Shown here in pieces: positions 21,542-47,423 of a stretch of 64,000 bases of DNA. Both the position numbers and the translations under genes were made by a program. The stretch is from Alteromonas sp. LMIT006 (GTDB lineage: Bacteria; Pseudomonadota; Gammaproteobacteria; Enterobacterales; Alteromonadaceae). The stretch is taken from positions 1,426,001 to 1,490,000 of the forward strand of contig NZ_CP101291.1 of NCBI RefSeq assembly GCF_024300645.1, written 5' to 3'. The notes beneath the pieces are model-generated. The model was not told where the DNA came from and searched no databases. It was given only the letters and a program-made list of their open reading frames with translations. The first letter of the stretch is position 1. Every line of letters begins with the position of its first letter.

Positions 21542-21575
21542 TGTGGATTTTCGAGCCAATAGTCATTGCCGTTAC

Positions 21576-23297
21576 ATGAATAAAACCAATAGCTCAAGTA
21601 GAACACTAAAAAAGCTTCGCTTAGCCCGCAATATTAGTATTGCCATACTGTATGTATTTTTATGTTTTGTTGTGATTCGTAATGAAATCTTGCATATTGA
21701 ATCTCAGCTAGATGTTGAACAAAAACATTTTGTGAATCAAGTTGAGACGTTTGAAACGTCAATCATTCAAGTTATTGATAGTTTTTCGGCATTTATTGCT
21801 CAGACACCGTCCCCAAGTTCACTCCAAAAACACGATTTTGCCAATCGTTTAATCACAACATATCCATATATTTATATGATTGGGCAAATTGAAACACTTG
21901 ACGAGTCCAGAATAGCGTCAATGTTATCGCCAACATTTCAATTAAAACAGATAACGGTTTCAGATAATGGCAAACTGTTATTAAAGCCAAAGCACCCAGA
22001 TGAATTAAATTACGTGATTACTTGGGTGCACCCTGATGTAAGCCCAGTCAACAGTGTTATAGGGCTTGATGTCTCAAACGTTCAAAAATTACAGCCTTTA
22101 TTTGCATCAGCACGCAACTATAAGCAGACACAAATAGGAGAGCCAATAACCCGAGATACATTAACCATGGAAACATTTGAAATGATCCAGGGGGGGTATG
22201 CTTTCTCGATTAACCAAGTTTCAAAGTATGTATCTAACACCGATGATATAGATAATGCTTTGTTGTCAACAATATTGTTTGAACACAAAATGCTTGTTTC
22301 GCATTTGCAGGAGTTCTTGCCAAATATCAACATGCAAGTCACGATTGATTACTTGGATCAGGCACTTGTGTATGGCAGTCCTGAGATTGTTGATAACTCC
22401 ATAATGACGATTCAAAAACGGTTTGATGTTTCCCTGTTTGATTCAAAATTAAACATTGTGCTTGAACAATCAATACAGTATGAAGCCCTAAATTTAGAGC
22501 TCATTGGCCTTATGACGGTTTATTTGATCTTAAATCTTATTGTATTTGAAAAGTTACATAACAATGTGGTTAGAAAACACAGTTATTTGCAAACGGTGAA
22601 CTCAAAGCTTCGCGAAAACATCAAAAACCGCTCGGATTTATTTGGTTTCATAGCACATGAACTTAAAACACCTCTGACCCTCATCTCATCGCCGACTCAG
22701 CAGCTTTTATCAGATGACAGTGTCGATCCTGATATACGTGAAAATTTACAGGTTATTCAGCGCAACACGCAGCGTATTCAAAGTATCATCGATCGGATTT
22801 TGACTATTAAACAGTTTCAGTCTAGAGATTTGGCCCCCGAGAAAATCAATATGGTCAAAGAGTTAAATGCCATTATTGCTCGTTATAGGCCTTTACTGGA
22901 TAGAAAAAACTTAGATTTTGTACTGCAAGGTAATCAGTATGACTTGATTTCTTTAGTAGAAGATTTAGCCTCATATCAAATTGTGTTGGAAAACCTATTC
23001 AGTAACGCCGCGAAATATACCACCGCGAATGGTATTGTGATCGTTGATTGGTATTGTCACGACGGTTTTTTCCAAATCGATGTGCGAAATTCTTGTCCAT
23101 TGATGAATGATGAAGAGCGCAGTAAGTTGTTTACTAAATACGTTCGTTCACATGATAGCGAGCAAGAAGGTGTTGGTCTTGGTCTGGGCTTAGTCAGAGA
23201 AATTTGTGAGAAAAATCAATGGATATTAAATTGTAAAAGCATCATTATCGAAAACGAGCCATTTATAGAATTTAATATTTCGATTCCTATGCGTTAA
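21576..23297 (+). CDS. Orphan membrane sensor histidine kinase
   Basis: Two-component sensor of 573 residues starting at the ATG at 21576 (a GTG at 21543 is less likely). A membrane helix (about 18-38) and a second one (about 315-335, 'LELIGLMTVYLILNLIVF') flank a ~275-residue periplasmic region with no domain I recognise. The HisKA domain has the phospho-His in 'FIAHELKTPLTLIS' (His361), the ATPase has N-box 'NLFSNAAKY' and G-box 'GVGLGLGLVREI'. There is no HAMP domain, only a short helical linker. No response regulator lies next to it; the thiamine operon follows but a functional link is not shown. Confidence 0.9.
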   Translation: MNKTNSSSRTLKKLRLARNISIAILYVFLCFVVIRNEILHIESQLDVEQKHFVNQVETFETSIIQVIDSFSAFIAQTPSPSSLQKHDFANRLITTYPYIYMIGQIETLDESRIASMLSPTFQLKQITVSDNGKLLLKPKHPDELNYVITWVHPDVSPVNSVIGLDVSNVQKLQPLFASARNYKQTQIGEPITRDTLTMETFEMIQGGYAFSINQVSKYVSNTDDIDNALLSTILFEHKMLVSHLQEFLPNINMQVTIDYLDQALVYGSPEIVDNSIMTIQKRFDVSLFDSKLNIVLEQSIQYEALNLELIGLMTVYLILNLIVFEKLHNNVVRKHSYLQTVNSKLRENIKNRSDLFGFIAHELKTPLTLISSPTQQLLSDDSVDPDIRENLQVIQRNTQRIQSIIDRILTIKQFQSRDLAPEKINMVKELNAIIARYRPLLDRKNLDFVLQGNQYDLISLVEDLASYQIVLENLFSNAAKYTTANGIVIVDWYCHDGFFQIDVRNSCPLMNDEERSKLFTKYVRSHDSEQEGVGLGLGLVREICEKNQWILNCKSIIIENEPFIEFNISIPMR

Positions 23298-32587: not shown

Positions 32588-33193
32588 ATGAACCAATCAA
32601 TTTTATTAGGTTTGCTCGTGTTAGCGTTACTTTCGCTTAAGGCAACAGCGCACGAGCACAAAAAAGAAGTAGAAAAAGAAGTCATGGTCAAAACATGGCA
32701 CATGGCGGGTGACACTAAATTTGCTCCTCATGAGATGCCGCAAGCAGAAGGTACTGAAATTAAATACATGGATGGCGATAATGAACTGCATGTAAAATTA
32801 GCACCAGGCACAGAATTAACTGAAGAGGTGATTCGTCGTGCCTTTGGTGACTTACCGGAAGCTGAATTGAACCGTCTTGTGGCGGTATTAACCAAAGTGT
32901 CTTATCCAACGGATAAAGATATGCTGACGGACTCTCAAGGCATCATCGAAAAAGAAGTTGAATTTATGTTCATTGACGAACATGGCAATGAGCAAGAAAT
33001 TGAAGTCAATAAGCAACACAAAATGATCGTCGTGGAAATTGACAAAGAAGGCGAAAAGGTTTCTGTCGAATCTTCGCGATACGAAACCTCTGAGGTCGAG
33101 CTGGATCTGGCAGATGCCATTATAGAGCTTATTCAAGCAGGTAAATTAGACGATGCGCAAAAGGCTCGCATCGCTAAAGCTTTGGCGCAATAA
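32588..33193 (+). CDS. Acidic secreted protein of unknown function
   Basis: 201 residues starting at 32588 with AGGAG 7 nt upstream. A signal peptide (about 1-21, ending KATA, mature N-terminus HEHKKEVEKE) is followed by a soluble, very Glu/Lys/Asp-rich chain without cysteine. Segments such as 'EFMFIDEHGNEQEIEVNKQHKM' (in part) and 'MIVVEIDKEGEKVSVESSRYE' (in part) suggest short beta strands, and the end ('ADAIIELIQAGKLDDAQKARIAKAL') is helical. I recognise no domain. It follows elaA by 1 nt and precedes the polysaccharide locus by 83 nt; it may belong to neither. Confidence 0.7.
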   Translation: MNQSILLGLLVLALLSLKATAHEHKKEVEKEVMVKTWHMAGDTKFAPHEMPQAEGTEIKYMDGDNELHVKLAPGTELTEEVIRRAFGDLPEAELNRLVAVLTKVSYPTDKDMLTDSQGIIEKEVEFMFIDEHGNEQEIEVNKQHKMIVVEIDKEGEKVSVESSRYETSEVELDLADAIIELIQAGKLDDAQKARIAKALAQ

Positions 33194-33276
33194 TCAAACT
33201 CATAATTCATGTTAATTTTCTAAATTTCGAGAAATGGAGGTCGATAGACATATATATTTATTTCTTTGGAGAAAGC

Positions 33277-33630
33277 ATGGACTTCGTAAAAGAACAAACA
33301 CATGAACAATTTCGCCTTGTTATATCAGGTGAACTCGACGCAGAAAGCACAGAACAGATCCGTCCAGAATTTGTTCAGCTTTCTGAGAATCCAGACTTTT
33401 CAACCATCATCATTAACTTGAAAAATGTTTCCTTTATCGATTCTTCCGGAATTGGTCTGATTGTTTTTTTATTTAAAAAAATGCGAGAGCATTCAATCGA
33501 AATGATATTGTCAGACGTGCACAGTCAACCATTGGAACTCATTAAACTCTTGAGAATTGATACGGTTATTACCGTTGAAACATATGAAAGCGAGTCACTA
33601 GACACGTTAGCGAGCTGGTCCATTGAGTAA
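33277..33630 (+). CDS. SypA-like STAS-domain protein (anti-anti-sigma-type)
   Basis: 117-residue single STAS domain of the SpoIIAA/RsbV type. The phosphorylatable Ser lies in 'VSFIDSSGIGLIVFLF' (Ser56), the position equivalent to SpoIIAA Ser58 and, as I recall, to Ser56 of V. fischeri SypA. A TTGGAG ribosome site precedes the ATG. It is the first gene of a run whose domain order equals sypABCDE. By analogy its phosphorylation state would be set by the kinase/phosphatase at 37272-38795 and would control polysaccharide output. The lipoprotein gene overlaps its stop by 8 nt. Confidence 0.88.
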   Translation: MDFVKEQTHEQFRLVISGELDAESTEQIRPEFVQLSENPDFSTIIINLKNVSFIDSSGIGLIVFLFKKMREHSIEMILSDVHSQPLELIKLLRIDTVITVETYESESLDTLASWSIE

Positions 33631-34465
33631 AATCATTGCTGTTTGTTTATCTCTTGTTTTGCTTCAAGGGTGTACCAACTTTCCCGAATATGGCAAAGGC
33701 GGTTTTGCTGAACATCATATTGACTTAATTGATCCATTTTATACCGATGAGCCAATGGGCCCCGAACATGGACTTAAGTTTGAATTTGAGTTGTTGCGTC
33801 AACAACTCGCCGTGTTAATCTTAGAAGGTGCTGAATGGTGTTTTCCAGCAACCGTCAAAGAAGCACAATTGCTGGAAAAGAGAGTGGCGCGAGAAATATT
33901 TGCAAAGTTGCATTTTGATGCAACAAACGATGTGATTGTATTGAGACACCTTTTGCATCGTTTAGAAAGACAGCTTGATTATGTGCTTCAAAAACAAACA
34001 TGCCAACTGCCCTCAGATAAGTTAGATAGTCCCCACAGCGCATCTGTTGCCATGGATATAAACACTGAGAAAGATGAACACGTAAAAGATATTACGACCT
34101 CTCAAGCGATGCAAAATATCCTAGATTTAATCAATGCGGACAATCAGTTTGCGACCGATTCTGCAGTGGTCAATTTGAAATATGTAGCCCGTCTCGCTCG
34201 AGCCGCGGAGATATTAAAAGAGTACCCATCCATAAAAGTAAGGTTGACGGGACACACTGACAAGTATGGTTCTGTAATTGACAATGAGTCACTGGGCTTG
34301 GCGCGAGCAGAGCAAGTTGGACGATATTTAGAAGCGTTCGGTGTAGCAAGAGAGCGTTTAACAATGGAGAGTGCAGGCGAATCGCAACCGTTATTTGATG
34401 GCGATGGAAAGCACATCGATCTTACAAATCGACGAGTAATGGCAAACGTTTACGAGGAACGATAA
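33623..34465 (+). CDS. OmpA-family outer-membrane lipoprotein (SypB-like)
   Basis: 280-residue lipoprotein. It must start at a TTG (33623, inside the STAS gene), because the signal peptide MSKIIAVCLSLVLLQGC (lipobox LQGC, Cys17) begins there and no ATG is near. Middle region is helical, with no assigned domain. The C-terminal OmpA peptidoglycan-binding domain (about 165-280) has 'VRLTGHTDKYGSVIDNESLGLARAEQVGRYL' (in part) and 'NRRVMANVYEER'. Overlap with the STAS stop implies translational coupling. The next gene starts at the last base of its stop. Likely anchors or supports the export machine at the outer membrane. Confidence 0.88.
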   Translation: MSKIIAVCLSLVLLQGCTNFPEYGKGGFAEHHIDLIDPFYTDEPMGPEHGLKFEFELLRQQLAVLILEGAEWCFPATVKEAQLLEKRVAREIFAKLHFDATNDVIVLRHLLHRLERQLDYVLQKQTCQLPSDKLDSPHSASVAMDINTEKDEHVKDITTSQAMQNILDLINADNQFATDSAVVNLKYVARLARAAEILKEYPSIKVRLTGHTDKYGSVIDNESLGLARAEQVGRYLEAFGVARERLTMESAGESQPLFDGDGKHIDLTNRRVMANVYEER

Positions 34466-36570
34466 TGCATTTTTTACGTTGCTTGGGCTTAGCACTCTTT
34501 TACCTCTTTTTTTGTTTCTCTTATGCGGAGGAATACTTGATCCAACCTGGTGACGAATTAACGATCACCATCCCCGGAGAAGAAGCATTTTCAGTGCCTT
34601 TTACGGTTAATCGAGACGGCGATATCCATCTACCTGAAATAGGTAGAGTAAGGGTTGCTGGGGTCTATGAAGAAGAACTACCATTGTTTCTTACAGAGTT
34701 TTTGGCAAACGTTTATCGTGACTTGACTGGATTAGACGCATTTGTCGCCAAAAAACAAATGCTTATTTTTGTCAGTGGGTATGTCAAAGAACCCGGCGAA
34801 TACGTCATCCCGAGAAGTGCAACGATACAAACCGCGTTACAGTATGCAGGAGGACTGCGCTCAGGAGCACAAATTAATAAATTGCAGCTTCGCAGACTGG
34901 ATACGCAAATCTATTTTGACTACAAATCTTATCTCGATTCCGGAGACACATCTCAGCTGCCACGTTTACGTGCAATGGATGAATTGTTTGTACCAGCCTC
35001 TCCAATCATTGGTAATGTCGAGATGGAATTTGATCCAGCCAAAATACCCGATTCAGGCGATGCTGCGCGAGACAATACTGCGATTAAAGTATTTGGTGAA
35101 GTCAAAAGTCCAGGTAGCTTCTCTTTCCGACCTGGAAAAAGCATCATTGACCTTTTAATGCGAGCAGGCGGTGTGACTCGATATGCTGGCGTCGAACAAA
35201 TCCGGTTAATTGCAGATGGTGAGCCTCAATTATTTAATTTGAAACGCTATTTGGAAACAGGTGATGAAGCGTTATTACCGGATATTCAACCAGGTACAAC
35301 TATTTTTATTCCGATCCAAGTGGAAGAAATAAAAACAGGTGGTAACGTGGTATACATCATGGGTGAAGTAAAAAAGCCCGGTGCATTTGAAGGTAAAGAG
35401 GATGCGACGTTTATGGATATCCTCGCAAACGCAGGAGGCCCTACTCGATATGCTGAATCAAGACAAATTCGTGTCATCAAAGCCAATGGTGAAGTGATCC
35501 CATTCGATCTGACTGCATTTACCGAAGGTGGAAATAATATTTTGCCGCCTGAGATCGAAAATGGCGATGCGATCTTCATCCCTGAAAAGACCGATATCAA
35601 CGAAAAGTCTTGGTTAAAAGTGACCCCTAATCGTGCGGTAAGAGTGATTGGTGAAGTCGTCAAGCCTGGACGATTTGAATGGTCGGATGAAATGTCTTTA
35701 CTCGATTTGATAGCCCATACCGGAGGCCCAACATCGCGTGCTGATACCTCTACTATAGAGGTCCTTTCTCCCCAACCTGATGGTAGCACGACCTTCACGG
35801 TTTTCAATTTAGATCATTTTATCAAAACAGGCCAACCAGAATCTGCATTGCCTAAGATTTATGCGGGGGCAACTGTGAGAGTACACGATCTCCCTGTCGA
35901 TCCAACAGATAATAAGTCGCAGTGGGTGAGACAATCATCTGAAAAATCCATTTATATTTTTGGTCAAGTCGGTGCACCAGGACGATATAAATTTGAAGAT
36001 GATATGCATTTTTTAGATATTTTAGCAGCCGCTGATGGGCCGACCGATAAGGCGGATTTGCACAACATTCGAGTCAGTCATCGCGACTTACCATACAGCA
36101 AGGTCAGCAAACTCAACTTAGCACTGTATTTTGAGACTGGTGATGAAAACATGTTACCAGAGGTCAAAACCGGTGATTCAATATATATTCCTGAGAAGGA
36201 GCGTCTGTGGATTGATGAACCAAGTGAAAATACGGTACGTATTCTTGGCGCGATAAATAAGCCTGGGCGGTATCGCTTTACAGATGATATGACAGTCATT
36301 GATTTATTAGCACAAGCTGCTGGCACCAAAGGCGATGCTTATATTGAAAAAATCACTATTGTTAATCTTTCTTGTTGTAAAAACCAAGCACAAACCTTTG
36401 ATTTGCTAGCGTTCAGTCAAACAGCAGACGTGACCAAACTGCCATTGCTCAGAGCTGGGGACACAGTATATGTGCCATATCGTTCAACAAGTGCGTTTCA
36501 AAAATGGCGTCAAGGTTTATCCGATGTCTTCCAGTTTGCATCGATAGCTGCACTTCTGGGAGTCATTTGA
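34465..36570 (+). CDS. Polysaccharide export outer-membrane protein with six SLBB repeats (SypC/Wza-like)
   Basis: 701-residue OPX protein. After a signal peptide (about 1-21) comes the Poly_export domain (about 22-95, 'YLIQPGDELTITIPGEE'). Then six SLBB units begin near residues 100, 208, 295, 391, 495 and 590, each with a G-x-V-x-x-PG-x-[FY] core such as 'GEVKSPGSF', 'GEVKKPGAF', 'GEVVKPGRF', 'GQVGAPGRY', 'GAINKPGRY'. Each is followed by a 'fdL..yl.tGd..lP.i..GD.i.iP' segment. Wza has about 380 residues and far fewer such units. The C-terminus has a hydrophobic stretch (FQFASIAALLGVI) that could insert in the outer membrane. Confidence 0.92.
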   Translation: MHFLRCLGLALFYLFFCFSYAEEYLIQPGDELTITIPGEEAFSVPFTVNRDGDIHLPEIGRVRVAGVYEEELPLFLTEFLANVYRDLTGLDAFVAKKQMLIFVSGYVKEPGEYVIPRSATIQTALQYAGGLRSGAQINKLQLRRLDTQIYFDYKSYLDSGDTSQLPRLRAMDELFVPASPIIGNVEMEFDPAKIPDSGDAARDNTAIKVFGEVKSPGSFSFRPGKSIIDLLMRAGGVTRYAGVEQIRLIADGEPQLFNLKRYLETGDEALLPDIQPGTTIFIPIQVEEIKTGGNVVYIMGEVKKPGAFEGKEDATFMDILANAGGPTRYAESRQIRVIKANGEVIPFDLTAFTEGGNNILPPEIENGDAIFIPEKTDINEKSWLKVTPNRAVRVIGEVVKPGRFEWSDEMSLLDLIAHTGGPTSRADTSTIEVLSPQPDGSTTFTVFNLDHFIKTGQPESALPKIYAGATVRVHDLPVDPTDNKSQWVRQSSEKSIYIFGQVGAPGRYKFEDDMHFLDILAAADGPTDKADLHNIRVSHRDLPYSKVSKLNLALYFETGDENMLPEVKTGDSIYIPEKERLWIDEPSENTVRILGAINKPGRYRFTDDMTVIDLLAQAAGTKGDAYIEKITIVNLSCCKNQAQTFDLLAFSQTADVTKLPLLRAGDTVYVPYRSTSAFQKWRQGLSDVFQFASIAALLGVI

Positions 36571-37271
36571 TGTCTTATATTACCCTGAGTAACGAAATTG
36601 ACTCGGTCTACTCAAAGTTGTTAACAGAACACAAACGCAGTATTGCGGTGGTTGCGACAACGGCTGGGGAAGGGGTTACCTCAATGGTGCTGGCATTGGC
36701 GAGGCGAATACTTCTATCAGGGCAAAGTGTGTTAGTGGTTGACTTTAATAGCCATAATCCATTTTTTTCGTCATCAATCTGTCTACCGCATTTTCAGCAA
36801 CAAGATTTGCCACCGAGGTTGCTGACGGATGAACGTCATCAGCTAGTAATGACCGGTGTACAGGCGCCAACGAGTAAATCTAAACTACTGCACCTTAGAT
36901 GCCCAGGTAAACTCGAACAACAAATTTCACAATGGTTAACTGATTTTGATTTTGTCGTTTTTGATACCACGCCATTCGGGCAAGTGAATCAGCATAATAT
37001 TCCTGCACAACGGGTTGCGGCTGCAGTGGACTCCTGTATTTTGATGGTCCTTTCTGGTGTGACTACGGATGTTATGGTGCAAGAAAGTGTGAATAAACTC
37101 AATAAAGTGGATGCATCGATATTGGGAGTGGTCATTAACGATAAGTATTCGCCCACCTTGCAATCGGAGCTTATTCGGGAAGTGATGCGGTTACCTGATT
37201 TTTGGGGTAAGTTAAGAGCCACTTTCGTAAAAGTGATACGAGAAAATAAATTATTACGCATGGATGTGTAG
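36570..37271 (+). CDS. CpsD/CapB-like P-loop protein with altered Walker A (SypD-like)
   Basis: 233 residues starting at 36570, sharing a base with the previous stop. The fold is that of the cytoplasmic half of bacterial tyrosine kinases/ParA-like ATPases: 'IAVVATTAGEGVTSMVLALARRI' (in part), Walker A' 'SVLVVDFNSHNPF' and Walker B 'FDFVVFDTTPFGQ'. The Walker A lysine, expected in GEGK[ST], is Val36 (codon GTT). The usual acidic pair DAD[LM]R of Walker A' is also changed, and there is no C-terminal Tyr cluster. It is probably a regulatory partner of the chain-length protein (43449-44903) rather than an active kinase. That is inference. Confidence 0.82.
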   Translation: MSYITLSNEIDSVYSKLLTEHKRSIAVVATTAGEGVTSMVLALARRILLSGQSVLVVDFNSHNPFFSSSICLPHFQQQDLPPRLLTDERHQLVMTGVQAPTSKSKLLHLRCPGKLEQQISQWLTDFDFVVFDTTPFGQVNQHNIPAQRVAAAVDSCILMVLSGVTTDVMVQESVNKLNKVDASILGVVINDKYSPTLQSELIREVMRLPDFWGKLRATFVKVIRENKLLRMDV

Positions 37272-38795
37272 ATGAACCAAACATTATTTCAAATTAACCT
37301 AAATAACCACATATCCAGTGCTCGTAAATTCAGAGAATACTTGCAAAAAGCTTTGATGAATGTGGTCAGAGAATCGAGCGTAAAAAATAAAATTTTGCTG
37401 GTAATGAGTGAGGCCGTCAGCAATATTAATAAGCACAATGACTTGCTTGGTGTCACGGTCACCGTCAAATTTGGCAAAAGTGATACGGGGTATTGGCTTG
37501 AAATTTTAGATGATGCCCCTGCGTTTAATCCGTTAGAGGTAGAGACTGCGGAACAAGATGATGACTTTCCGTTACTTGAGAGTCAAAGAGGTATTTATCT
37601 GATCAAGCAACAATGTGATGATATTGTGTATCAATATCTAGAAAAAAGTCGACTAAATTCATTGCGCTGTACTTGGGAATATCAGTTAAAAGAACACAAG
37701 AAATCCATCCTAATTGTTGATGACAGTCACGTCGAAGTGACTATTCTCAAACATCAGCTCAGTGACGAGTATCATGTGATAACGTGTGAAAACACTATTA
37801 TAGCCACACAAATCATTGAGCAAAATACGTTTGACCTGATTTTATGTGATGTGCACATGCCGAGAGTCAGTGGTATCGATTTGTATGTATATCTGCAGAA
37901 AAACAAAAAAGAGATGGTGCCTTTTATTTTTATCACTTGCAGTGAAGATATTGAGATGCTCGAACAAGCTTATCATTTAGGGGCAGACGATGTATTGTGT
38001 AAACCCATTCCAAAAACCATTTTATTAAATACTGTCAAACGAGTTTTGAAGCGCAATCAACACATGTATCGCAGGCTTCAAGACCGTATTGATAAAAAAA
38101 TTTCTCAGTCTTTATTACCATCTATCCCAGAAAATCTAAAGTCTTGGAATATTGCAGTCGGCTATCGCAACACGGGTAAAGGGGGCGGGGATTTTTTATT
38201 ACATCAGCCCAGTATTAGCGGCGATACTATCGTGTTGGTAGACATCATGGGACACGATGATAGTGCTAAATTCTTCTCCTTTGCTTATGCTGGATACATC
38301 AGAGGCTTGTTGTATAACAATCACTTGATTAATAATCCGCATGAACTATTACTCACCTTATCCAACATGGCGTTAAATGATGAACTCTTTTCACGTATAA
38401 ATTTAACATGTTGTTTGTTGCATCTGGGGCAGGAACGGCAATTAAAGTATGTTAGTGCTGGTCATCCTGAGGGCGTTCTGATCACTTCCGATGGCGTAAG
38501 CCCGATTGAGCAAAGTGGTATTATTCCTGGGATCATTCCAAACGCCACTTATGAAACGACGACTTTTATGCTTCCAGAAGACGGCAGAGTCGCGATATTT
38601 ACCGATGGATTATTTGAAGCAGCCATTGATGTTCCCTCTCGAAAAATACTTAAAGAATTGATGTTTGACACCTTGCAAAAAACAAGAGAGTGCGAAGTGC
38701 AAATTGCAATGGATGAACTTTTGTATCAGTTCGACAAATTCACACATGAACGTCCACTAGATGATTTAATCTTGTGCTTAATCGACTTAGATTAA
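37272..38795 (+). CDS. SypE-like RsbW kinase / receiver / PP2C phosphatase fusion
   Basis: 507-residue cytoplasmic switch protein. Residues about 1-135 form an RsbW/SpoIIAB-like HATPase with N-box 'VMSEAVSNINKHND'. Residues about 146-262 form a receiver with 'ILIVDDSHVE', phospho-acceptor Asp193 in 'LILCDVHMPR' and Lys in 'DVLCKPIP'. Residues about 290-507 form a SpoIIE-type phosphatase with 'VLVDIMGHD', 'SAGHPEG' and 'AIFTDGLFEA' metal-binding motifs. Kinase and phosphatase in one chain should respectively phosphorylate and dephosphorylate the STAS protein at 33277, with the receiver choosing. The same layout defines SypE. Starts right after the previous stop. Confidence 0.92.
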   Translation: MNQTLFQINLNNHISSARKFREYLQKALMNVVRESSVKNKILLVMSEAVSNINKHNDLLGVTVTVKFGKSDTGYWLEILDDAPAFNPLEVETAEQDDDFPLLESQRGIYLIKQQCDDIVYQYLEKSRLNSLRCTWEYQLKEHKKSILIVDDSHVEVTILKHQLSDEYHVITCENTIIATQIIEQNTFDLILCDVHMPRVSGIDLYVYLQKNKKEMVPFIFITCSEDIEMLEQAYHLGADDVLCKPIPKTILLNTVKRVLKRNQHMYRRLQDRIDKKISQSLLPSIPENLKSWNIAVGYRNTGKGGGDFLLHQPSISGDTIVLVDIMGHDDSAKFFSFAYAGYIRGLLYNNHLINNPHELLLTLSNMALNDELFSRINLTCCLLHLGQERQLKYVSAGHPEGVLITSDGVSPIEQSGIIPGIIPNATYETTTFMLPEDGRVAIFTDGLFEAAIDVPSRKILKELMFDTLQKTRECEVQIAMDELLYQFDKFTHERPLDDLILCLIDLD

Positions 38796-38812: not shown

Positions 38813-39973
38813 TTATACTTTTTTCCACGGTTTACGACTTCGATATATCATGTAATCGAGGGCGCCAACCAAGCCACTTAAATGTCCTCTAAATAAATAA
38901 GACACCATTTTGACATATCGGTTATGACTTGCGAATTCGTAGCGAAGTTCTAGAAACAGCAATAGATAAAAAAGGTTTTGCAATATAAATTCGTAGACAA
39001 AAATGGGGTGACTATTCAATAACATCGCATTGGATAGATAGGTTATGATCATCAAAAACGGAATAACGACCCTCAGCGCTTTGCCAGATGCAAATAAAAA
39101 GGCAACTTGCTTATATTTGGGACGCAGCAACGACTTTAAGCGCACCACTTGTTGCACATTGCCAGCGGATATTCGTTTGCGGCGTTGTTGGTTCATTGTA
39201 TGACAACTCGCCTCTAACTCTAATGCATGGACGTCTTTGAGTTGTTTGACTTTGAATCCTTGCTTAACAATACGCATAGGCAAAATAAAATCATCGTTGA
39301 TGGTATCGTGTTCTAACTCAGTGAATAGTTTGCTACGGAAAATATAAAAAGCGCCATGTGCTCCAAGTGTAGAGAATAATAGCGATTCTTGTTGTTTGAT
39401 TTTTGACTGATACAACCAATAAGACTGTTCTCCAGCTTGGTTGTTGTATAACTTGTAATGCGAGTTCACAACACCGACTTCTGGGTCCAAAAACATTTGT
39501 GCTGAGAGTTTTAATCCATCAATGGAGATGAGCGCTGACACATCAGACATCGCTACCAACTCAGTTCTAATAAGCTTCATACCTTCATTGATAACAGCAA
39601 TCTTGCCTCGATTTGTGGGAAACTCGATCACTTGGAGGTTTAATTTTTGGCACTCAGGATATGCTTGACATTGTTTGGCAATTTCGACCGTGTTGTCGGT
39701 ACAGCCATCGCACAATATCAATATATTCAACTTGTCTTGCGGATAATCTAGAATCGTAAGATTCAATACTTTATCTGCAATCCACTGTGCTTCATTATAC
39801 GCAGGGATGAGTATGGTAATTCCAGGTAAGTCTTTCTCTGCAATTTCAACGGCATTTTCACCTTCCTGATGTTTACCTTTGGTCAACCATGTCAGCAACA
39901 GGGGATAAATAATATGATGGTATAAAATCAAAAATATAGCTACACCATGGATGAAAAAGAGGGCTGCAGTCAT
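38813..39973 (-). CDS. Membrane glycosyltransferase family 2 (SypQ-like)
   Basis: 386-residue processive-type GT2 enzyme. An N-terminal membrane helix (about 3-30), a GT-A domain (about 48-250) with 'ITILIPAYNEAQWIADKVLNL', 'LILCDGCTDNT', 'LVAMSDVSALIS' and 'INDDFILPMRIVKQG', and C-terminal membrane helices (about 285-360). It probably starts or extends the exopolysaccharide on the cytoplasmic face. It overlaps the GT4 gene by 4 nt (ATGA) and is the last gene of the leftward operon, converging on the sypE-like gene with 17 bp between stops. No hairpin terminator is visible there. Confidence 0.9.
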   Translation of the reverse strand: MTAALFFIHGVAIFLILYHHIIYPLLLTWLTKGKHQEGENAVEIAEKDLPGITILIPAYNEAQWIADKVLNLTILDYPQDKLNILILCDGCTDNTVEIAKQCQAYPECQKLNLQVIEFPTNRGKIAVINEGMKLIRTELVAMSDVSALISIDGLKLSAQMFLDPEVGVVNSHYKLYNNQAGEQSYWLYQSKIKQQESLLFSTLGAHGAFYIFRSKLFTELEHDTINDDFILPMRIVKQGFKVKQLKDVHALELEASCHTMNQQRRKRISAGNVQQVVRLKSLLRPKYKQVAFLFASGKALRVVIPFLMIITYLSNAMLLNSHPIFVYEFILQNLFYLLLFLELRYEFASHNRYVKMVSYLFRGHLSGLVGALDYMIYRSRKPWKKV

Positions 39974-41094
39974 TCATAAGCTCCTTGTGTATAAATGCCA
40001 AAATATTTACTCATGGTGTGGTCAAAATGATTGTGCTCAAAGACGTGCTGGCGGGGATCACATTCAGGTGTATGGTGAAATAAATGTGTGATGGCATTAC
40101 CGAGTAAATCCGGTCTTTGCACAGGAACAGCTGTCCCTGTCAGAGGGCACAAGGTTTCAGTACTGCCACCAGTATCCGTCACAATACATGGAACAGAACA
40201 AGCTTGAGCTTCGAGCGTAGATATGGGGTAGCCTTCCTTTAACGAGGGCAAGCAAAAACAGTCAAGCGCTTGATAAAAGGTTTTCATCTGTTCGACATGC
40301 CCCAAAAATACCACGCGATCTGCAACGCCAAGAGCTTGTGCATATTGCTTCAATGCACTGGCCTGAGAACCATCTCCTGCTATTGCAAGATACACAGTCG
40401 GTGGCGTGTTGATCATAGCGTCTAATAATGTTTTGTGATCTTTTACTAACTCTAAACGCCCAGCATTACCAACCCAAAAACCATATTGACGCAATCCAAA
40501 ATAAGCACGCGCGTAGCTCTTGTTGCCACTGCGAAATTGCGACACATCGACGCCATTAGGAATGACTTTATTGACTTTTATTCCTGTGTTTTTTTCAAAC
40601 GCACGCGCAACAAATTGTGCATCGGCGACGATTGTAGGGCGGACCACTCGCAAGATGGCTTTTTGTAATGTTCTTCTGCGAAAGTTCTCTAGATGCCAAG
40701 CGTCATGCTCTGTATGTACGACATGACATTTGGCCATTTTGGCGGCAATCCCGCCGTACAACAGCGGGCCAATATGATGGGTGTGCACCACATCAATTTT
40801 GTTTTCGAGAAAATAATCTCGAAGTTTTATGATTAATGATGGGGTAACGCCATTTTCTTTGGCAAAGCCTATCCATGGCGTTTTTAGTGTCGATAAACGC
40901 TGCCAATCTCGTAACAATTCTTCTGGCTGACCTTGCAGACTGATGACTCTAGATTGCACAGTGCCTCGCATGGCGTTTGCCATATTCAGCACCATCGTTT
41001 CGATACCACCAGGTTGTAAATGTTGAACAATATGGGCGATGCGTAATATGTTATTCGTTTGTTTTAATTGAGCTGGGCTGCGAGTTGCTTCCAT
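39970..41094 (-). CDS. GT-B glycosyltransferase, group 1/GT4 (SypP-like)
   Basis: 374-residue cytoplasmic GT4 enzyme. N-domain has 'IAHIVQHLQPGGIETMVLNMANAMRG' (in part) and 'VHTHHIGPLLYGGIAAK'. C-domain has 'VIPNGVDVSQF', 'GNAGRLELVKDHKTLLDA', 'LGHVEQMKTFYQALDCFCLPSLKEGYPISTLEAQA' (in part, with EX7E) and 'TDTGGSTETL'. It resembles the sugar transferases of PEP-CTERM/exosortase-linked polysaccharide clusters. The start overlaps the 3' end of the hydrolase-like gene by 44 nt. Confidence 0.92.
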   Translation of the reverse strand: MEATRSPAQLKQTNNILRIAHIVQHLQPGGIETMVLNMANAMRGTVQSRVISLQGQPEELLRDWQRLSTLKTPWIGFAKENGVTPSLIIKLRDYFLENKIDVVHTHHIGPLLYGGIAAKMAKCHVVHTEHDAWHLENFRRRTLQKAILRVVRPTIVADAQFVARAFEKNTGIKVNKVIPNGVDVSQFRSGNKSYARAYFGLRQYGFWVGNAGRLELVKDHKTLLDAMINTPPTVYLAIAGDGSQASALKQYAQALGVADRVVFLGHVEQMKTFYQALDCFCLPSLKEGYPISTLEAQACSVPCIVTDTGGSTETLCPLTGTAVPVQRPDLLGNAITHLFHHTPECDPRQHVFEHNHFDHTMSKYFGIYTQGAYE

Positions 41095-43441
41095 GCGATG
41101 CCTCCGTATGAATATGGTTAGCTAATTGTTTTATCTCAATAAGCCATTGGGTAAGGGTGGAGGTCTCAACATTGAGAGGGGAACCTTGTTGTTTGATAGC
41201 CTTCTGTATAGATGTGATTAATTGAGCTGCGCGTAAGTCGTGTTTGGCAGTGGTCGTTAACCACTGTAGCCACCTCTGGTCATATATGCCCTGACTGATG
41301 GCAAGTAAAGTCCAATCTACATCTGGTTTGGTAGAGCATAATTCTGCGGCTGGGTAGATGAAAAACACATCGTCTTCACGGGCATCCACCGGTGAGAATG
41401 GATAAGCACTTGGCATTCGGGCATGCCATTGAAAATAACCGTCAGTTTGCCAGTGCCAAGTGGCTAACCCGGCAGCATGTCGATGTTGTTCAATATTATA
41501 TAAATACACTTTTGAATCTTCTTGTGCCAACAGGTGGAAGTCGTTGTCGTTTAACTCAACAGATGAATTGACGAGTTTAGCCGAAACAGAATTGAACCAT
41601 TGCGTATCTTCTGGCGCGTTAAAATGCCCTGCTGTGATATCCAGTAGCGAGTCAGTGGTCGTGGTAAAGGGCGGACTTGCGGCATTACTTGGTTCATCTG
41701 CAATCGACCAAAATAATTCAATGTTGGGAAACTCAGTGCGCACTAATGCATCGACTTTTTGGATTTGGGCAATCGCAGCGGATACTCCCATTGTTGCAAC
41801 TAAGCGTTTATATGGCGCGTATGCAAGAATGGTCTGATTCAGCCCCGCTGCATCAACATTTTTTAATCGTTTTAAAAATGCTTTAGTTTCCACGTCGTTT
41901 GACGGTGTAGGCAGTCCAGGTGAAAGCGCATTTAAACCGAAGCTTTTTAATCTATCTAAGTCACAACGGTAAGCTCGATTTGGGGCGAGTGACGAAAACC
42001 ATTCGCGCTGATAAGGCACTTCAAGATACACACCAACACTGGTAGTTAACTTTGGTAATGGCAGGTTTAATACAGTCACTTGAAGCGGAATTGAACGTGG
42101 ATTTCCATGGACTGTGAAGATCATTTCGTAGTGGTACGTTCCAGCAAGTGTATTCGGTAGTGTTGCTACCGAAAGTGTACTGATACTGGGTAATGTCTGT
42201 TGTTCAGATATCGGATGGTGGCTGAGACGTTGCGCGGAAAAGTGCAGTAAATTACCTTGTAATGACTTACGCCGAAGTTGCCAATTTACATGTCTTGGTG
42301 TCACTATTGGGGAAGATGTAAGGGCACTCGTAATTTGTCCCTTATCCTTCTCTGTCACGCGTACAATGTTAAAATCTGCAGCAAACTCATAAGTGAAGGC
42401 CAAATGCTGTTGTTCATCTTGTGCCATCACTAGTGTTAATGGAGAGTTTATGTCTTGAATCGGCATTGGGATGAAAAGCGCATCTGTTATTGGCCAGTTT
42501 TGCCGCCACCATAACGCCTGTTGATGCGTCACGTGGTCGATTGCCTTTTCCTCACCTAATGGCTCAATCAGTAATCCCGCTAGATATTTAGCTGCTGGCT
42601 GGTCTCCGCTGAACGTCAATATATTTTGGGAAGTGTTCGTTTCCAATGTATAAGAATGATGACCATAAAAAGGCACAACGATGTCATTAAATACATCTGG
42701 TTTATCAGAATATGAAGGCTGCCTTAAATAGCGCTGCTTCTGCCAAGTATCTGGTGTCCAGTTTATCTGCTCAAGGAGCGTGTTATTAAAAGTGATGGTT
42801 CGCGTCAAAAAATGCGGGGTATATTCCCAGTCTCCCATGTCTTCAAGCCATAAATGAATACGGTAACGTCCGGGCCCGATAGGGAGTTTTAGGGTATCTA
42901 TCCCTTTAATACCATCGCTGATAAGGCCATCATTGACGCCGTTGTGGCGATCCCTTTGCAGCGGAGTAAGGCGGCCTGACAGCGCAGGGTGTGTTGGGGT
43001 GATACGTTCAAAACCAGGCCAGACTTTACTATTGGGAGCACCAAAATCCCATGCAATAAGTTCTTCGGGCAAGGGCATTATCGGTTTGCTCGTGGTTGCT
43101 GCAAAGTCAATATTTGCATGTGAATTACCGGCAAAAATATAAATGGTTTGAATGTCCTCGGGCTTCATCTGTCGTTTATTACTTGTGTATAACTCACTCG
43201 TACTCAGGTGAAAAGTAAAACTCCCAGGCAGTACAGTACGTTCATAATTGACGCGTTGTGCATAGTTCGGCGACGTTCTATCATCAATTCTAACCACGAC
43301 AATTTGAGGCACATTGGTATGGTTTGTCCCTTTGAATTCTAGGAATTTATTGGTTAGATCGTGTTGACTCACGTGCCAAACATGTTTTGCTTCAACATAT
43401 GATGAAGCCATCATAGCCACCAGGATCAACAGAAAGCGCAT
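41051..43441 (-). CDS. Secreted GH123/DUF4091-like protein of the polysaccharide cluster
   Basis: 796-residue exported protein. I start at 43441, directly at the signal peptide MRFLLILVAMMASSYVEA; a GTG 27 nt upstream lies in the neighbour gene. Residues about 20-450 look beta-rich. The C-terminal ~330 residues resemble the GH123/DUF4091 barrel: 'LKSFGLNALSPGLPTPS', 'LFWSIADEPSNAA' with the adjacent acidic pair Asp582-Glu583 expected for GH123-type catalysis, and 'GLATWHWQTDGYFQWHARM'. It may trim or remodel the polymer in the periplasm. Fold assignment is moderate and the substrate is unknown. Confidence 0.6.
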   Translation of the reverse strand: MRFLLILVAMMASSYVEAKHVWHVSQHDLTNKFLEFKGTNHTNVPQIVVVRIDDRTSPNYAQRVNYERTVLPGSFTFHLSTSELYTSNKRQMKPEDIQTIYIFAGNSHANIDFAATTSKPIMPLPEELIAWDFGAPNSKVWPGFERITPTHPALSGRLTPLQRDRHNGVNDGLISDGIKGIDTLKLPIGPGRYRIHLWLEDMGDWEYTPHFLTRTITFNNTLLEQINWTPDTWQKQRYLRQPSYSDKPDVFNDIVVPFYGHHSYTLETNTSQNILTFSGDQPAAKYLAGLLIEPLGEEKAIDHVTHQQALWWRQNWPITDALFIPMPIQDINSPLTLVMAQDEQQHLAFTYEFAADFNIVRVTEKDKGQITSALTSSPIVTPRHVNWQLRRKSLQGNLLHFSAQRLSHHPISEQQTLPSISTLSVATLPNTLAGTYHYEMIFTVHGNPRSIPLQVTVLNLPLPKLTTSVGVYLEVPYQREWFSSLAPNRAYRCDLDRLKSFGLNALSPGLPTPSNDVETKAFLKRLKNVDAAGLNQTILAYAPYKRLVATMGVSAAIAQIQKVDALVRTEFPNIELFWSIADEPSNAASPPFTTTTDSLLDITAGHFNAPEDTQWFNSVSAKLVNSSVELNDNDFHLLAQEDSKVYLYNIEQHRHAAGLATWHWQTDGYFQWHARMPSAYPFSPVDAREDDVFFIYPAAELCSTKPDVDWTLLAISQGIYDQRWLQWLTTTAKHDLRAAQLITSIQKAIKQQGSPLNVETSTLTQWLIEIKQLANHIHTEASHGSNSQPSSIKTNE

Positions 43442-43448
43442 ATTATGT

Positions 43449-44903
43449 TTACTCAAGTAACCCCCCACGCAAATCTTGCGGAGCCACCCGAGGAATTCGA
43501 GTGAGTACTTCTTGACCTAACTTCAGCTCTACTTGCTTTTTGTAGCGAATGCTATGGTCGTTAATACTTGCAAAGATCGCACAGCCAATACCAAATACAA
43601 CCCCTCCTAGCATGCCGGCGATTAAAAAGAGAATAGCCGATGGATTGTTAGGCACACTCGGAGTAAAGGGGATATCGATGACTTTGATGCGCTTTTCTTT
43701 TTCGAAAAAACCCAAGGCACCGGTCACTCGAGCCAGTTCATAACGTTCTAACAAATCTTCATATAAATTGCGTTTTACTTTTAGATCGCGTTGTAATTCA
43801 TTGAGTTGCTTTTCTAGCTCCCCAAGTTGTGATGTCCTTTCTGCTTGCGAACGGATCATGGTTTTGAGGCTGTTTGTTTCTTCGGTGAGGGCATCCACTT
43901 TGCTACGTGCAAGTTGCAGGTGGTCTAATTGAGCAATCAGTAATAGAGGCTGTTGTGAATCTTTCGAACTATTGGCTTTACTTGCCATACTCCACAGCTG
44001 ATCTACATCGATTTGGTGATCTTGATTTTGTAATGCTTCAAGCCGTTCTTCTTGCAGTCGATTCAACACTCGCATAGCGCCTTGAACCTGACTGTGATTA
44101 TCGGTATAACGCGCTTTTAACAAAGCCAGCTGACTCTGTAATTGGATGATGCGTTCCTCTAGATTGGCTACCACTGGGTTGGATTTTGACAGTTGTTGGT
44201 CAATCGTCCCCAGAGTCTTTATCGCACCGGCTAGTTCGGCTTCTTTCTCAAATAAGGTTTGTTTAAGCTGTGCTAAGCGACTTACATTGCCAAGATGCAG
44301 TTCTGGAAGTTGCTCAGCGTGTTGGTTCTTGAAGGTGGCAAGCGCATTTTCTGCTGCGGCCAGTTCTATCTGACGATTGGTCAAAAGGTCGGCAAGAAAT
44401 GTTGAAGAATCCGTGATAGAGGAGCGCTCTGGCGCGAGTAGTTGTTCAATAAAATGATTGGAAACCGTTTCAAGTAGAGGCACTATGCTATCGGGGTCTG
44501 AGTTTGAATATTCAATCCGAATCAAATCTTTACCCGTCATTTCCATTCTCAACGAACTGGATAACTGATTGATAACCCTCTCTTGCTCTACTTTATTGGT
44601 ATTTTCATTGATCAGTTTTCGATCGATAGCCACTTGACGCAAAATATGTCGACTGTGCAATAGGGTTTGTAAAGCGGATAAGCGCTCCTTGAGCATGGCG
44701 GATACGGCGAAATCCTCCAAAAAGGGGTTCAGTTTTGACGTTTCTTGAATCAACATACTGGTGTGTGCTGTATATGTTTTCGGAGAAAGTGAACCGACCG
44801 TAAAACCAATAATGGGGAATATCAAGATGGGTAAAATGATGACATATCGGTGACGCCACCCCGCATCCAGCCATATATAGAATTGATAGCTAATATGATT
44901 CAT
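43449..44903 (-). CDS. Wzz/GumC-type polysaccharide chain-length determinant (SypO-like)
   Basis: 484-residue inner-membrane PCP protein. Membrane helices near 20-40 ('YVIILPILIFPIIGFTVGSL') and 425-450 ('ILFLIAGMLGGVVFGIGCAIF'), the second preceded by the Pro-rich 'IDIPFTPSVPNNPSA', flank a long periplasmic coiled coil. It has no fused kinase domain. The separate CpsD-like protein at 36570-37271 would supply that part. It resembles the XrtA/PEP-CTERM chain-length group. It overlaps the upstream glycosyltransferase gene by 14 nt. Confidence 0.92.
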   Translation of the reverse strand: MNHISYQFYIWLDAGWRHRYVIILPILIFPIIGFTVGSLSPKTYTAHTSMLIQETSKLNPFLEDFAVSAMLKERLSALQTLLHSRHILRQVAIDRKLINENTNKVEQERVINQLSSSLRMEMTGKDLIRIEYSNSDPDSIVPLLETVSNHFIEQLLAPERSSITDSSTFLADLLTNRQIELAAAENALATFKNQHAEQLPELHLGNVSRLAQLKQTLFEKEAELAGAIKTLGTIDQQLSKSNPVVANLEERIIQLQSQLALLKARYTDNHSQVQGAMRVLNRLQEERLEALQNQDHQIDVDQLWSMASKANSSKDSQQPLLLIAQLDHLQLARSKVDALTEETNSLKTMIRSQAERTSQLGELEKQLNELQRDLKVKRNLYEDLLERYELARVTGALGFFEKEKRIKVIDIPFTPSVPNNPSAILFLIAGMLGGVVFGIGCAIFASINDHSIRYKKQVELKLGQEVLTRIPRVAPQDLRGGLLE

Positions 44904-46017
44904 TGGCCAAAATATCCATCACTTGTTGTGCTTTGACAGCCCAATCCTCACATTCAACCAGTCGTTGTTGTGCTGTCGTTCGGTCTTTCAGTAATACGCT
45001 ATTCAAGGCTTCGCACATTTCTTGTGGAGTATGAATGACATTAATGACATGACGATAGGGGGCTAAGGCCGGAAAATCGGAGCTAATGATTGGTGTGCCA
45101 GTCGCCAAATACTCACGCAATTTTAATGGGTTACACGCTCTTATTTGAGTATTGTCAACAAATGGTAAGATCGACACATTCCAGTGTTGAGAAAACCTTG
45201 GTAATTCATGGTGGGAGACTTCGGGGTAGAAAAAAACATTTGAAAATTGTGTCAGTCGACTCACATCTACAACGACCTTGCCAACAAATACAAAATGCCA
45301 ATGCGGCATTTTGGCAATCACCTTGGATAGCAATGAAAGATCTAGCCAAGCCGATATGCTGCCGTAAAATCCAGCAATCGGTTTGCCTTGTGGCAGTAAT
45401 TCCGAAGCCATCGTTGGATTTGCAAATAACTGAAAATCGACGCCATGAGGAATCAAGAAGGTTTTTGGACTAGACAGTTTTTCGGCTAAAGCCTGGCTTG
45501 AGACGAAAATGACATCCGCTTTATGCAACAGTTCATCTTCTCGTTTAGAAACGATGTCATGATCAACGCCAGCCAGACCAGCAAAATCATCGCCACAGTA
45601 ATACACTACCTTTTTTTCATTTAAATGCCCAACCATATCTACGGCGGTAGGCAGTGATATCCATAGGATAGGAGACTGCAACTGAAGGCGTTCAGTCACA
45701 GGGACGATTTGCTTTTTGAGAAAAATCTGACAAAGTTTCCTCGTCAACGTCCATTTGGGTACAGGTACCGTCATCGGGTTGATGATAGTCATATTTTCTG
45801 GGACGCTAGAAGACGGTTGCTCGGGGTGAGCGTGCCACCGAGCAAAGACTTTTTCTTTTAAACGCAGTAAGTCATGCAAAGTCACTTTGGGTTTGCGCAA
45901 TCCGATTGAGTTTACCCAAATCACCTTTCGTTCTGTTGCGATATGCTTAATTAAATGTTGTGTGCTTGAGGGTAACTTGCCCCAGTCTTCACCAAAAACG
46001 ATTAAATCTTGTCGCAT
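44890..46017 (-). CDS. GT-B glycosyltransferase of the polysaccharide cluster
   Basis: 375-residue GT-B enzyme. N-terminal 'DLIVFGEDWGKLPSSTQHL' and 'ILWISLPTAVDMVGHL', middle 'VVYYCGDDFAGLAG' and 'LIPHGVDFQLF', C-terminal 'GKPIAGFYGSISAWLDLSLL', 'VFVGKV', 'LPFVDNTQIRACNPLKLREYLATGTPIISSDFPAL' (in part, with N-P-L-K and E for nucleotide-sugar binding). It overlaps both neighbours (16 nt with the diguanylate cyclase gene, 14 nt with the chain-length gene), so the three are translationally coupled. Donor sugar unknown. Confidence 0.88.
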   Translation of the reverse strand: MRQDLIVFGEDWGKLPSSTQHLIKHIATERKVIWVNSIGLRKPKVTLHDLLRLKEKVFARWHAHPEQPSSSVPENMTIINPMTVPVPKWTLTRKLCQIFLKKQIVPVTERLQLQSPILWISLPTAVDMVGHLNEKKVVYYCGDDFAGLAGVDHDIVSKREDELLHKADVIFVSSQALAEKLSSPKTFLIPHGVDFQLFANPTMASELLPQGKPIAGFYGSISAWLDLSLLSKVIAKMPHWHFVFVGKVVVDVSRLTQFSNVFFYPEVSHHELPRFSQHWNVSILPFVDNTQIRACNPLKLREYLATGTPIISSDFPALAPYRHVINVIHTPQEMCEALNSVLLKDRTTAQQRLVECEDWAVKAQQVMDILANESY

Positions 46018-47003
46018 GATTTTCCTTGAAAAAAGTCAAAAGTCAGTGCTGTCACACAATTTCGACCGTTCTTTTTTGATTCGTAAAGAGCGTGATCGGC
46101 ATGAGCCAATAATGAAGCAACGTCGTGTTTGAATGCTCTAAACTGAGTTACGCCAAAACTCGCAGTCACTTGAATAGGTTTATTATCATAGGTCAATGCC
46201 ATCGATTCTATGGCAATACGATATCGTTCAATGGGTATTTTGGCCTCTTCCAATGAGGTATCCGGCATACAGATACAAAACTCTTCCCCTCCCATGCGGC
46301 CGATGGAATCTTCATTACGCAGATGTTTTTTCAATGTCTTGCACACTTCTTTGAGCACCATATCTCCGGCATCATGGCTGTGGTTATCATTGATTTGCTT
46401 AAAAAAGTCCAAATCAAAGTAGGCCACGCATAACGCTCGTTGATGACGCTGTGAAACCGTGATGGCTTTTTTGAGAATGTCATTAAAATGCCGGCGGTTC
46501 GGTAAGCCAGTTAATACATCGGTAAGCGACTCGTGTTGCATGGTGAGGTATTTGCTCAGCTGTTTTTTACGCATCAAAAACATTCGTACAATAGCATTGA
46601 CCTTGGCATGGATAAGATCTTTATCCATTGGAGTTAAAATAAAGGCATCCGCTCCTACATTGAGTCCTTGAACAAAATCTTCCCTATTGTTGGCACTGCC
46701 CATTAGCAAAATAGGACGCCAGATTTCTTCAAGTAAATCCTCCATCATTCTGATCATTCTGATCAATTCTATGTTGCCATCACTTTTTTTCTGCATATCA
46801 AGAATGATCAGTGAATATATATCAGGCTGTGCTCGCAGTGCAGCAATAGCTTGCTCGCAGCTTGTAAATGCACTGACCTGATAGTTTAGCTGCTTTAACG
46901 TCGTTTCAATATTTTGTAGTGATTGAACAGAGGCACTGACGAGCAGTACTTGTACTTCTTCATTACTGACGCGATGGGAACTGTGCATATTAATTAAATC
47001 CAT
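46002..47003 (-). CDS. Diguanylate cyclase with N-terminal receiver-like domain
   Basis: 333-residue protein that should make cyclic di-GMP. The GGDEF domain (about 165-325) carries intact GGEEF (about 236-240) and an RxxD product-inhibition site (RNED, five residues before it). The N-terminal receiver-like domain (about 17-135) keeps Asp69 ('LIILDMQKK') but lacks the acidic pair that binds Mg ('VLLVSASVQS' in place of VDD), so normal phosphorylation is doubtful. ATG at 47003 overlaps the lipoprotein gene by 14 nt; an ATG at 46988 is also possible. Its place inside the operon suggests local c-di-GMP control of the polymer. Confidence 0.93.
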   Translation of the reverse strand: MDLINMHSSHRVSNEEVQVLLVSASVQSLQNIETTLKQLNYQVSAFTSCEQAIAALRAQPDIYSLIILDMQKKSDGNIELIRMIRMMEDLLEEIWRPILLMGSANNREDFVQGLNVGADAFILTPMDKDLIHAKVNAIVRMFLMRKKQLSKYLTMQHESLTDVLTGLPNRRHFNDILKKAITVSQRHQRALCVAYFDLDFFKQINDNHSHDAGDMVLKEVCKTLKKHLRNEDSIGRMGGEEFCICMPDTSLEEAKIPIERYRIAIESMALTYDNKPIQVTASFGVTQFRAFKHDVASLLAHADHALYESKKNGRNCVTALTFDFFQGKSCDKI

Positions 47004-47412
47004 TAAAAATAATTGCCTGAGATATATCTACGGTGCTTTTTTCACTAGTATAAGTATCGTCAATACCGCTTTTTCCACTCCATAAAATGTGGGTTTGCGC
47101 ATTGCCTACTGGGATGGGAATGGCGAATGACTTGCTTCCTCCTGGTATCAAGGACGTTTGTATTAATACGGTTTGATTTTCATCCATTATCTGCACATTG
47201 ACTAAGTTTGGACTGGTATTGGTTAATGAAATGTCATGGGCTTTGAACATTGCAAACGTATGCCCAGCTTGTGCAGTGGTGTTTGCTGTGGATGGGGTGA
47301 TGGGTGGATTAGGGGATGGCGACACAGGAACATTCTGTACTGTTTCACCATCTCCTGAACCACCACAGGCACAAAGTAAGAAGCAAGTAGAGATGAATAG
47401 TATTTTATGCAT
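46990..47412 (-). CDS. Small lipoprotein of unknown function
   Basis: 140-residue lipoprotein with signal peptide MHKILFISTCFLLCAC (lipobox LCAC, Cys16), a Gly/Ser and Pro/Thr-rich linker (about 17-48) and a C-terminal beta-rich domain ('NLVNVQIMDENQTVLIQTSL', 'AIPIPVGNAQTHILWSGKSG'). No known family is recognised. It lies 11 nt after the LruC-domain gene and overlaps the diguanylate cyclase gene, so it is expressed with the polysaccharide operon and could help retain secreted matrix at the cell surface. That role is a guess. Confidence 0.75.
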   Translation of the reverse strand: MHKILFISTCFLLCACGGSGDGETVQNVPVSPSPNPPITPSTANTTAQAGHTFAMFKAHDISLTNTSPNLVNVQIMDENQTVLIQTSLIPGGSKSFAIPIPVGNAQTHILWSGKSGIDDTYTSEKSTVDISQAIIFNGFN

Positions 47413-47423
47413 GAGTAAAACCC

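Follow-up and report, generated by a model that had tools for sequence, protein, structure and literature searches.

A syp/scv-type sypABCDE gene set without adjacent SypF or SypG beside an exopolysaccharide operon in Alteromonas sp. LMIT006

What does a STAS/serine kinase switch control when it is encoded together with polysaccharide export genes, and from where does it receive its input? This question is raised by five plus-strand open reading frames (ORFs), here named A to E, that span positions 33277-38795 of a 64,000 nt stretch of the Alteromonas sp. LMIT006 genome (NZ_CP101291.1, positions 1,426,001 to 1,490,000; the window), a genome assembled as a single contig of 2.53 Mb. Judged by sequence comparison, the five genes are a syp/scv-type sypABCDE set, and this module very probably exerts post-transcriptional control over the export of a Wzx/Wzy polysaccharide. 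Its parts and the region preceding it are:

33277-33630, + strand: A, 117 amino acids (aa), STAS protein of the SypA/ScvA type with phosphosite S56 and output helix F64 L65 F66 K67 K68
33623-34465, + strand: B, 280 aa, OmpA-domain lipoprotein of the SypB type; lipobox LQGC from sequence reading
34465-36570, + strand: C, 701 aa, SLBB-rich polysaccharide export protein of the SypC type
36570-37271, + strand: D, SypD-type protein resembling bacterial tyrosine kinases (BY-kinases), with GEGVTS as P-loop carrying Val for Lys and without the C-terminal Tyr cluster
37272-38795, + strand: E, 507 aa, SypE-type fusion of an RsbW-type kinase (N51), a receiver (D193) and a PP2C domain (D307, D324, D445, D497)
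33194-33276, + strand: 83 bp gap 5' of A, in which neither a sigma-54 site nor a sigma-70-like match was found

All junctions abut or overlap by at most 8 bp (A/B 8 bp; B/C 1 bp; C/D 1 bp with the ATG of D at 36570, the longest ORF opening at 36504; D/E gap 0 bp). Pfam detected STAS in A (63 bits), OmpA in B (58 bits), Poly_export and SLBB in six stretches of C (184 bits) and HATPase_c_2, Response_reg and SpoIIE in E, while AAA_31 reached 21 bits in D, under the cut-off. These ORFs and domains agree with a first-pass annotation of the window, which had described five coupled genes for a STAS protein, an OmpA lipoprotein, an SLBB export protein, a CpsD-like ATPase and an RsbW/REC/PP2C fusion, and had likened them to SypABCDE. 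Its further statement that the module heads an exopolysaccharide locus does not hold, since the exopolysaccharide operon is on the opposite strand, tail to tail with the module, and ends 17 bp from E.

To assign the genes we used as reference a V. fischeri-type locus (L220), whose SypA has 105 aa. Compared by eye, this protein carries the residues that PMC4517449 and PMC10120452 report for V. fischeri SypA (here and below, papers are cited from the parts available) with one exception, residue 84, which is Asn84 in the discussion of PMC10120452 and Gln84 in PMC4517449 and in L220. Identity between window and reference proteins is 41% for A (87 columns), 43% for B (273), 60% for C (703), 34% for D (223) and 35% for E (506), and the key residues of A and E are kept in the alignments. 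A total of 71 loci was scanned, comprising the window, 30 of 79 loci from one list of relatives and 20 each from two others; of the 49 loci remaining in the 79-locus list only L056 was scanned. Sixty-two contained all five genes, which was the condition for entering the comparison and not a result, and 53 distinct loci were left after removal of nine duplicates. The order A-B-C-D-E on a single strand is conserved in all 53, in lineages including Glaciecola, Moritella, Aeromonas, Motilimonas, Hahella, Lamprocystis and Photobacterium, which argues that the module is not a chance assembly. In 49 of them D is directly followed by E, and F lies between D and E in the other four (L031, L046, L051, L180). 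In a tree of whole E proteins the Glaciecola clade falls inside a 24-row SypE clade with support 99/94; the same tree carries long-branch warnings at other joins, and one of these (L235 with the rest) affects a split containing the window. Identity to the V. fischeri-type proteins, common order, the E tree and the kept phosphosite and catalytic residues together carry the assignment to sypABCDE and bear out the likeness drawn in the first-pass annotation.

C is 92% identical to the nearest relative, and Glaciecola sp. HTCC2999 (L028/L023) carries the same five genes at 49-79% identity. Within the host genus, 4 of 10 genomes encode E, and 54 of 394 genomes sampled across the order match the E protein at an E-value of 1e-30 or lower; among these matches, 29 of the 30 rows of at least 254 bits start at residues 1-9, and the remaining one (G210) covers residues 184-503 only. 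As scv loci have been described from 148 species of 28 genera, with gene content that varies among loci and with Glaciecola sp. HTCC2999 listed as a carrier (PMC8941931), syp/scv loci outside Vibrio, including Glaciecola, are already published and the window holds a further member of this locus family. In its available part, that paper does not treat the distribution of SypE, the P-loop of D or the sigma-54 site. The locus shares with V. fischeri syp the A to E homologues, their order, the phosphosite, the catalytic residues and, by inference, a linked SypQ-like GT2 glycosyltransferase; it differs in that adjacent SypF and SypG and the sigma-54 site upstream of A are absent, the exopolysaccharide operon is convergent on the other strand, and no priming transferase was found in the ORFs of that operon.

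The residues on which a partner switch would depend are in place. S56 of A aligns with S56, and D193 of E with D192, of the L220 proteins, in agreement with the first-pass annotation; D192 is presumably the number of the receiver Asp in V. fischeri-type SypE. Residues N51, D151, D193, K244, D307, D324, D445 and D497 of E are present in 53/53 loci, the roles of N51, D193, D307, D324, D445 and D497 being those of the GHKL, REC and PP2C families, and the catalytic residues are intact in all four Glaciecola loci. The reference E has N52, in agreement with PMC3610818. Likewise invariant in A are D55, S56, G58, G60, K67, Q84 and P85; position 68 is R in 48 loci, K in four and N in one, so that K68 of the window is a conservative change. 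In V. fischeri, SypE acts via SypA and below syp transcription (PMC3610818, PMC12369376), and SypA K67A and R68A are stable proteins with which biofilm formation is abolished (PMC4517449). A description of conserved SypA output residues outside Vibrio was not found in the literature searched, which excluded most subscription papers.

Moreover, the output residues outlast the kinase. In 329 genomes of one Vibrionaceae-like family (that of G279), with cut-offs of E-value 1e-12 or lower for A and 1e-55 or lower for E, and D counted as weak above 1e-40, A was detected in 228 genomes, D in 259 (223 strong, 36 weak) and E in 66. Every genome with strong D also has A (223/223), A together with strong D occurs without E in 157 genomes, and A without strong D in five. 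Reading by eye of the loci of 16 E-less genomes revealed K67-R68 in all of them, a phosphosite Ser in 15, with Pro in L301, where the K67-R68 helix is kept, and loss of the P-loop Lys in each of the 15 that include D. Absence of sypE has been reported for V. parahaemolyticus and V. vulnificus (PMC4517449). K67 and K/R68 of A thus persist where E is absent, which was not found described in the literature searched.

D is probably a pseudokinase, a BY-kinase fold without the catalytic Lys, a call that follows from loss of the P-loop Lys in 52 of 53 loci. The D family profile matches BY-kinases (CapB chimera, E-value 9e-16), and the predicted fold (mean predicted local distance difference test, pLDDT, 76.5; predicted template modelling score, pTM, 0.69) has the kinase domains of Wzc, Etk and BceF as top matches (TM score about 0.6 to the query; Wzc best at E-value 1e-8). 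At the P-loop Lys position, set by profile alignment with CapB, BceF, Etk and VpsO, the 53 proteins carry V (32, including the window), T (13), S (3), G (2), C (1), A (1) and K (1), and GxGK[ST] is not matched in the 52 without Lys. Of the Walker motifs, the A' Asp is retained in 52/53 and the B Asp in 53/53, and the last 35 residues are devoid of Tyr in 41. Neither SypD as a pseudokinase nor the P-loop loss was found described in the literature searched. A comparable arrangement of BY pseudokinase and kinase-less co-polymerase is EcpK/EpsV of Myxococcus xanthus and HfsB/HfsA (PMC12004946): D shares with it the stand-alone, BY-kinase-like nature, the missing P-loop Lys, the mostly missing C-terminal Tyr residues and a kinase-less Wzz in the locus. 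In contrast to EcpK, in which all Walker motifs are gone, D retains the A' and B Asp, and a STAS/serine-kinase switch is unmentioned in the available part of that paper.

The linked operon extends from 38813 to about 57051 on the minus strand. Besides GT4 enzymes and a phosphohexomutase-type enzyme it encodes:

38813-39973, - strand: GT2 glycosyltransferase with relatives among the GT2 enzymes next to other syp-type loci, of the SypQ/ScvN type by inference from a GT2-R fusion in Photobacterium
43449-44903, - strand: Wzz/GNVR co-polymerase without kinase domain, the presumed partner of D
46002-47003, - strand: REC-GGDEF protein inside the operon
49370-50758, - strand: Wzy_C-domain protein (domain match)
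50755-52167, - strand: Wzx-type flippase (domain match)

A linked SypQ-like GT2 and Wzz, Wzx and Wzy genes are as expected of a syp/scv locus. By analogy to V. fischeri, A would be switched off through phosphorylation on S56 by the kinase domain of E, the PP2C domain would remove this phosphate, and the receiver, through D193, would choose between the two activities. Unphosphorylated A would then act on the export machinery through helix alpha-2 (K67, K68), most likely on D, which as a pseudokinase would scaffold the kinase-less Wzz protein. Extended to syp/scv loci in general, this would mean that a serine partner switch replaced the tyrosine-phosphorylation cycle of Wzc-type co-polymerases, with D scaffolding an octamer of kinase-less Wzz (SypO) and the SypE-set state of SypA deciding whether D engages, a proposal that we regard as tentative and rather doubtful. 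If true, it would provide the long-sought target of SypA, given as unknown in PMC4517449 (2015) and PMC10120452 (2023), and a second way of running a Wzx/Wzy exporter; the loss of its P-loop lysine across the family makes D a concrete candidate for this target.

Several observations weigh against these readings. Arg27, whose substitution in V. fischeri SypA (R27A) allows escape from SypE (PMC4517449), is not conserved: the window has E26, and R is found in 17/53 loci. Given fixed K67 and R/K68, this implies that the output residues are fixed across loci and the contact of R27 with E is not. Clustering of the STAS and kinase domains away from SypA and SypE had been named beforehand as contrary evidence; E lies inside the SypE clade, while the STAS tree (115 columns) does not settle the grouping of A with SypA. 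Nine scanned loci lack the full set (L029, L030, L038, L040, L043, L048, L049, L050, L052). In L029, L030, L048, L049 and L050, some of them at contig ends, the stretches read contain STAS and E-like genes but not B, C or D, and L043 has STAS and E-like genes with only a distant B-like match, implying that A and E can occur apart from export genes. Furthermore, residual pairwise distances beyond those of C gave for A-D r = -0.05 (p 0.73) over 53 loci, 0.18 (p 0.01) over 45 loci and 0.05 (p 0.32) over 25 representatives, and for D-Wzz r = -0.26 over 19 loci, two of them with partial Wzz ORFs. Distance correlations thus do not support A-D and D-Wzz contacts, and it is the missing D-Wzz correlation along with the loci with A and E but no B to D that lowers our estimate for D as scaffold. 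Over the same three sets A-E r varies (0.22, 0.58, 0.06) and D-E r is steady (0.56, 0.37, 0.61; p 0.001 each). E itself could touch D, or neighbouring genes could merely travel together.

As separate observations, the D-E correlation beyond C is accounted for by none of the explanations considered, and L029, from an uncultured Lamprocystis, has the order A-F-E-G with B, C and D not found, different from L031 of L. purpurea, by loss or by an assembly gap.

Loci with STAS and E-like genes but no B to D would fit, and slightly raise the likelihood of, a classical RsbV/RsbW partner switch in which the two proteins regulate a sigma factor and have the polysaccharide genes as mere neighbours. A does resemble SpoIIAA/RsbV (PDB E-value 1e-10; TIGR00377 above cut-off), and the STAS substrate and GHKL serine kinase are common to this locus and the SpoIIAA/SpoIIAB and RsbV/RsbW pairs of B. 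subtilis. Some of the loci without B to D are at contig ends or only distantly related. We consider this explanation distinctly improbable: each of the 66 Vibrionaceae-like genomes that encode E has A and a strong D match too. Here REC and PP2C domains follow the kinase in one protein, the locus shows no sigma factor gene, and the A family has an aromatic residue at position 64 (53/53) and Arg at position 93 (42/53) where SpoIIAA and RsbV have glycines (PMC10120452). V. fischeri SypA, moreover, is held not to be an anti-anti-sigma factor (PMC4517449).

Alternatively, the target of A could be the initiating phosphoglycosyl transferase (SypR), for which the action of EpsW on EpsZ in Myxococcus, a small regulator acting on a phosphoglycosyl transferase, is a precedent (PMC12802240). 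Related syp/scv loci carry the priming transferase beside the GT2 or fused to it. However, a scan of 14 ORFs (38813-60043), with no search beyond them in this genome, detected no such domain, nor did a one-sequence R profile within about 10 kb in the Glaciecola loci L026-L028, and we regard this target as unlikely.

From where, then, would the switch receive its input? The first-pass annotation had reported neither a SypF-like kinase nor a SypG-like activator in the window and no -24/-12 promoter at the rightward start, and had concluded that the input side must differ or lie elsewhere. All of this stands: the two sigma-54-type AAA+ proteins of the window are TyrR and PspF, no -24/-12 site lies upstream of A, and no F-like gene was found in the flanks of the module that were read. 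A sigma-70-like promoter match was likewise missing at 33000-33300. The window encodes one plain histidine kinase:

21543-23297: histidine kinase, 584 aa, HisKA and HATPase domains without receiver, 22% identity to the F kinase core

Its gene is located some 10 kb upstream of A; genes for a TonB-dependent receptor and an NMN transporter family protein come after it, and no link to the module was seen. Initial calls of F, G and R were made with one-sequence profiles, those of F and G being later superseded. Genome-wide, six sigma-54-type activators were found, of which PrsR, NtrC, TyrR and PspF pass NCBIfam cut-offs and two (472 and 456 aa) passed no equivalog cut-off among the listed families. 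SypG acting in trans was rejected, the best genome score being 364 bits compared to 643-748 for G proteins outside the training set. The genome search that had been proposed for SypF gave no equally clear answer, as two hybrid kinases (L111, 426 bits; L112, 351 bits) reach the lower score range of F proteins that were not used for training (L181, 320; Aeromonas, 369-437); a SypF equivalent encoded elsewhere in the genome may or may not act on the module.

Loci without G in the stretch read are common in the family. Within the flanks read, 18 of the 53 loci have F and G, 14 F alone, one G alone and nine neither, and a short F match is present with G in four and without G in seven. Absence of G from the stretch read in 30/53 loci implies that the sigma-54 activator is not universal in syp/scv loci. 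At a score threshold of 0.84, set after the first scores were known, a -24/-12 site no more than 120 bp from A was detected in 19/23 loci with G, 6/30 without G (five Aeromonas loci and L239), 34/5300 shuffles and 0/4 Glaciecola loci. For the Aeromonas loci concerned (L034, L036, L037, L039, L042), SypG may be encoded elsewhere. The literature searched did not describe SypG and its promoter site as missing together. Nine of the 53 loci have A to E with neither F nor G in the flanks read, which places the Glaciecola loci among the smallest natural forms seen with the whole switch, and such loci separate the transcriptional layer from the switch.

Short F matches at the place of SypF were noted in L176, L222, L225, Moritella L033, L035, L054, L163-L165 and L167. 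In the two examined with Pfam, an Hpt-only protein follows E (L164) or lies between E and G (L176), and SypF may, going by these domain matches, erode to its Hpt part in some loci. PF01627 (Hpt) has three matches in the genome, ArcB, a REC-Hpt protein encoded around C1:338076 and a 183-aa protein encoded around C1:1497642, the latter two being candidate phosphate donors for the E receiver. The input would then be rewired, with phosphate for D193 supplied in trans, perhaps from one of these few Hpt proteins.

The missing F, G and sigma-54 site could alternatively mark a decaying syp remnant whose switch is deaf to any signal. We hold this to be very improbable, as the intact catalytic residues of E in the Glaciecola loci and the 92% identity of C to the nearest relative stand against decay. 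Even less credible is membership of an XrtA/PEP-CTERM exopolysaccharide system under PrsK/PrsR: PrsK, PrsR and an exosortase are present in the genome, and C passes TIGR03027 narrowly (182.3 compared to 180 bits), but all three lie outside the locus, the exosortase about 200 kb off with an export-like gene of its own, while the five genes match syp loci and A lacks a -24/-12 site. This candidate was rejected. The exosortase (the single match, at C1:1262292) belongs to a second exopolysaccharide-type locus (L320, G000:C1:1258000-1276000), about 53 kb from PrsK/PrsR at C1:1205587-1209011.

Three further features of the exopolysaccharide operon were observed. A protein of 805 aa (41051-43468) has no Pfam match and about 35% identity in L022/L023, compared to 49-68% for its operon neighbours. 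At 46990-49367, a small lipoprotein-like ORF adjoins a LruC-domain/DUF4842/DUF4114 protein, and 52164-55526 encodes a protein of 1120 aa with three GT4 matches in a single chain.

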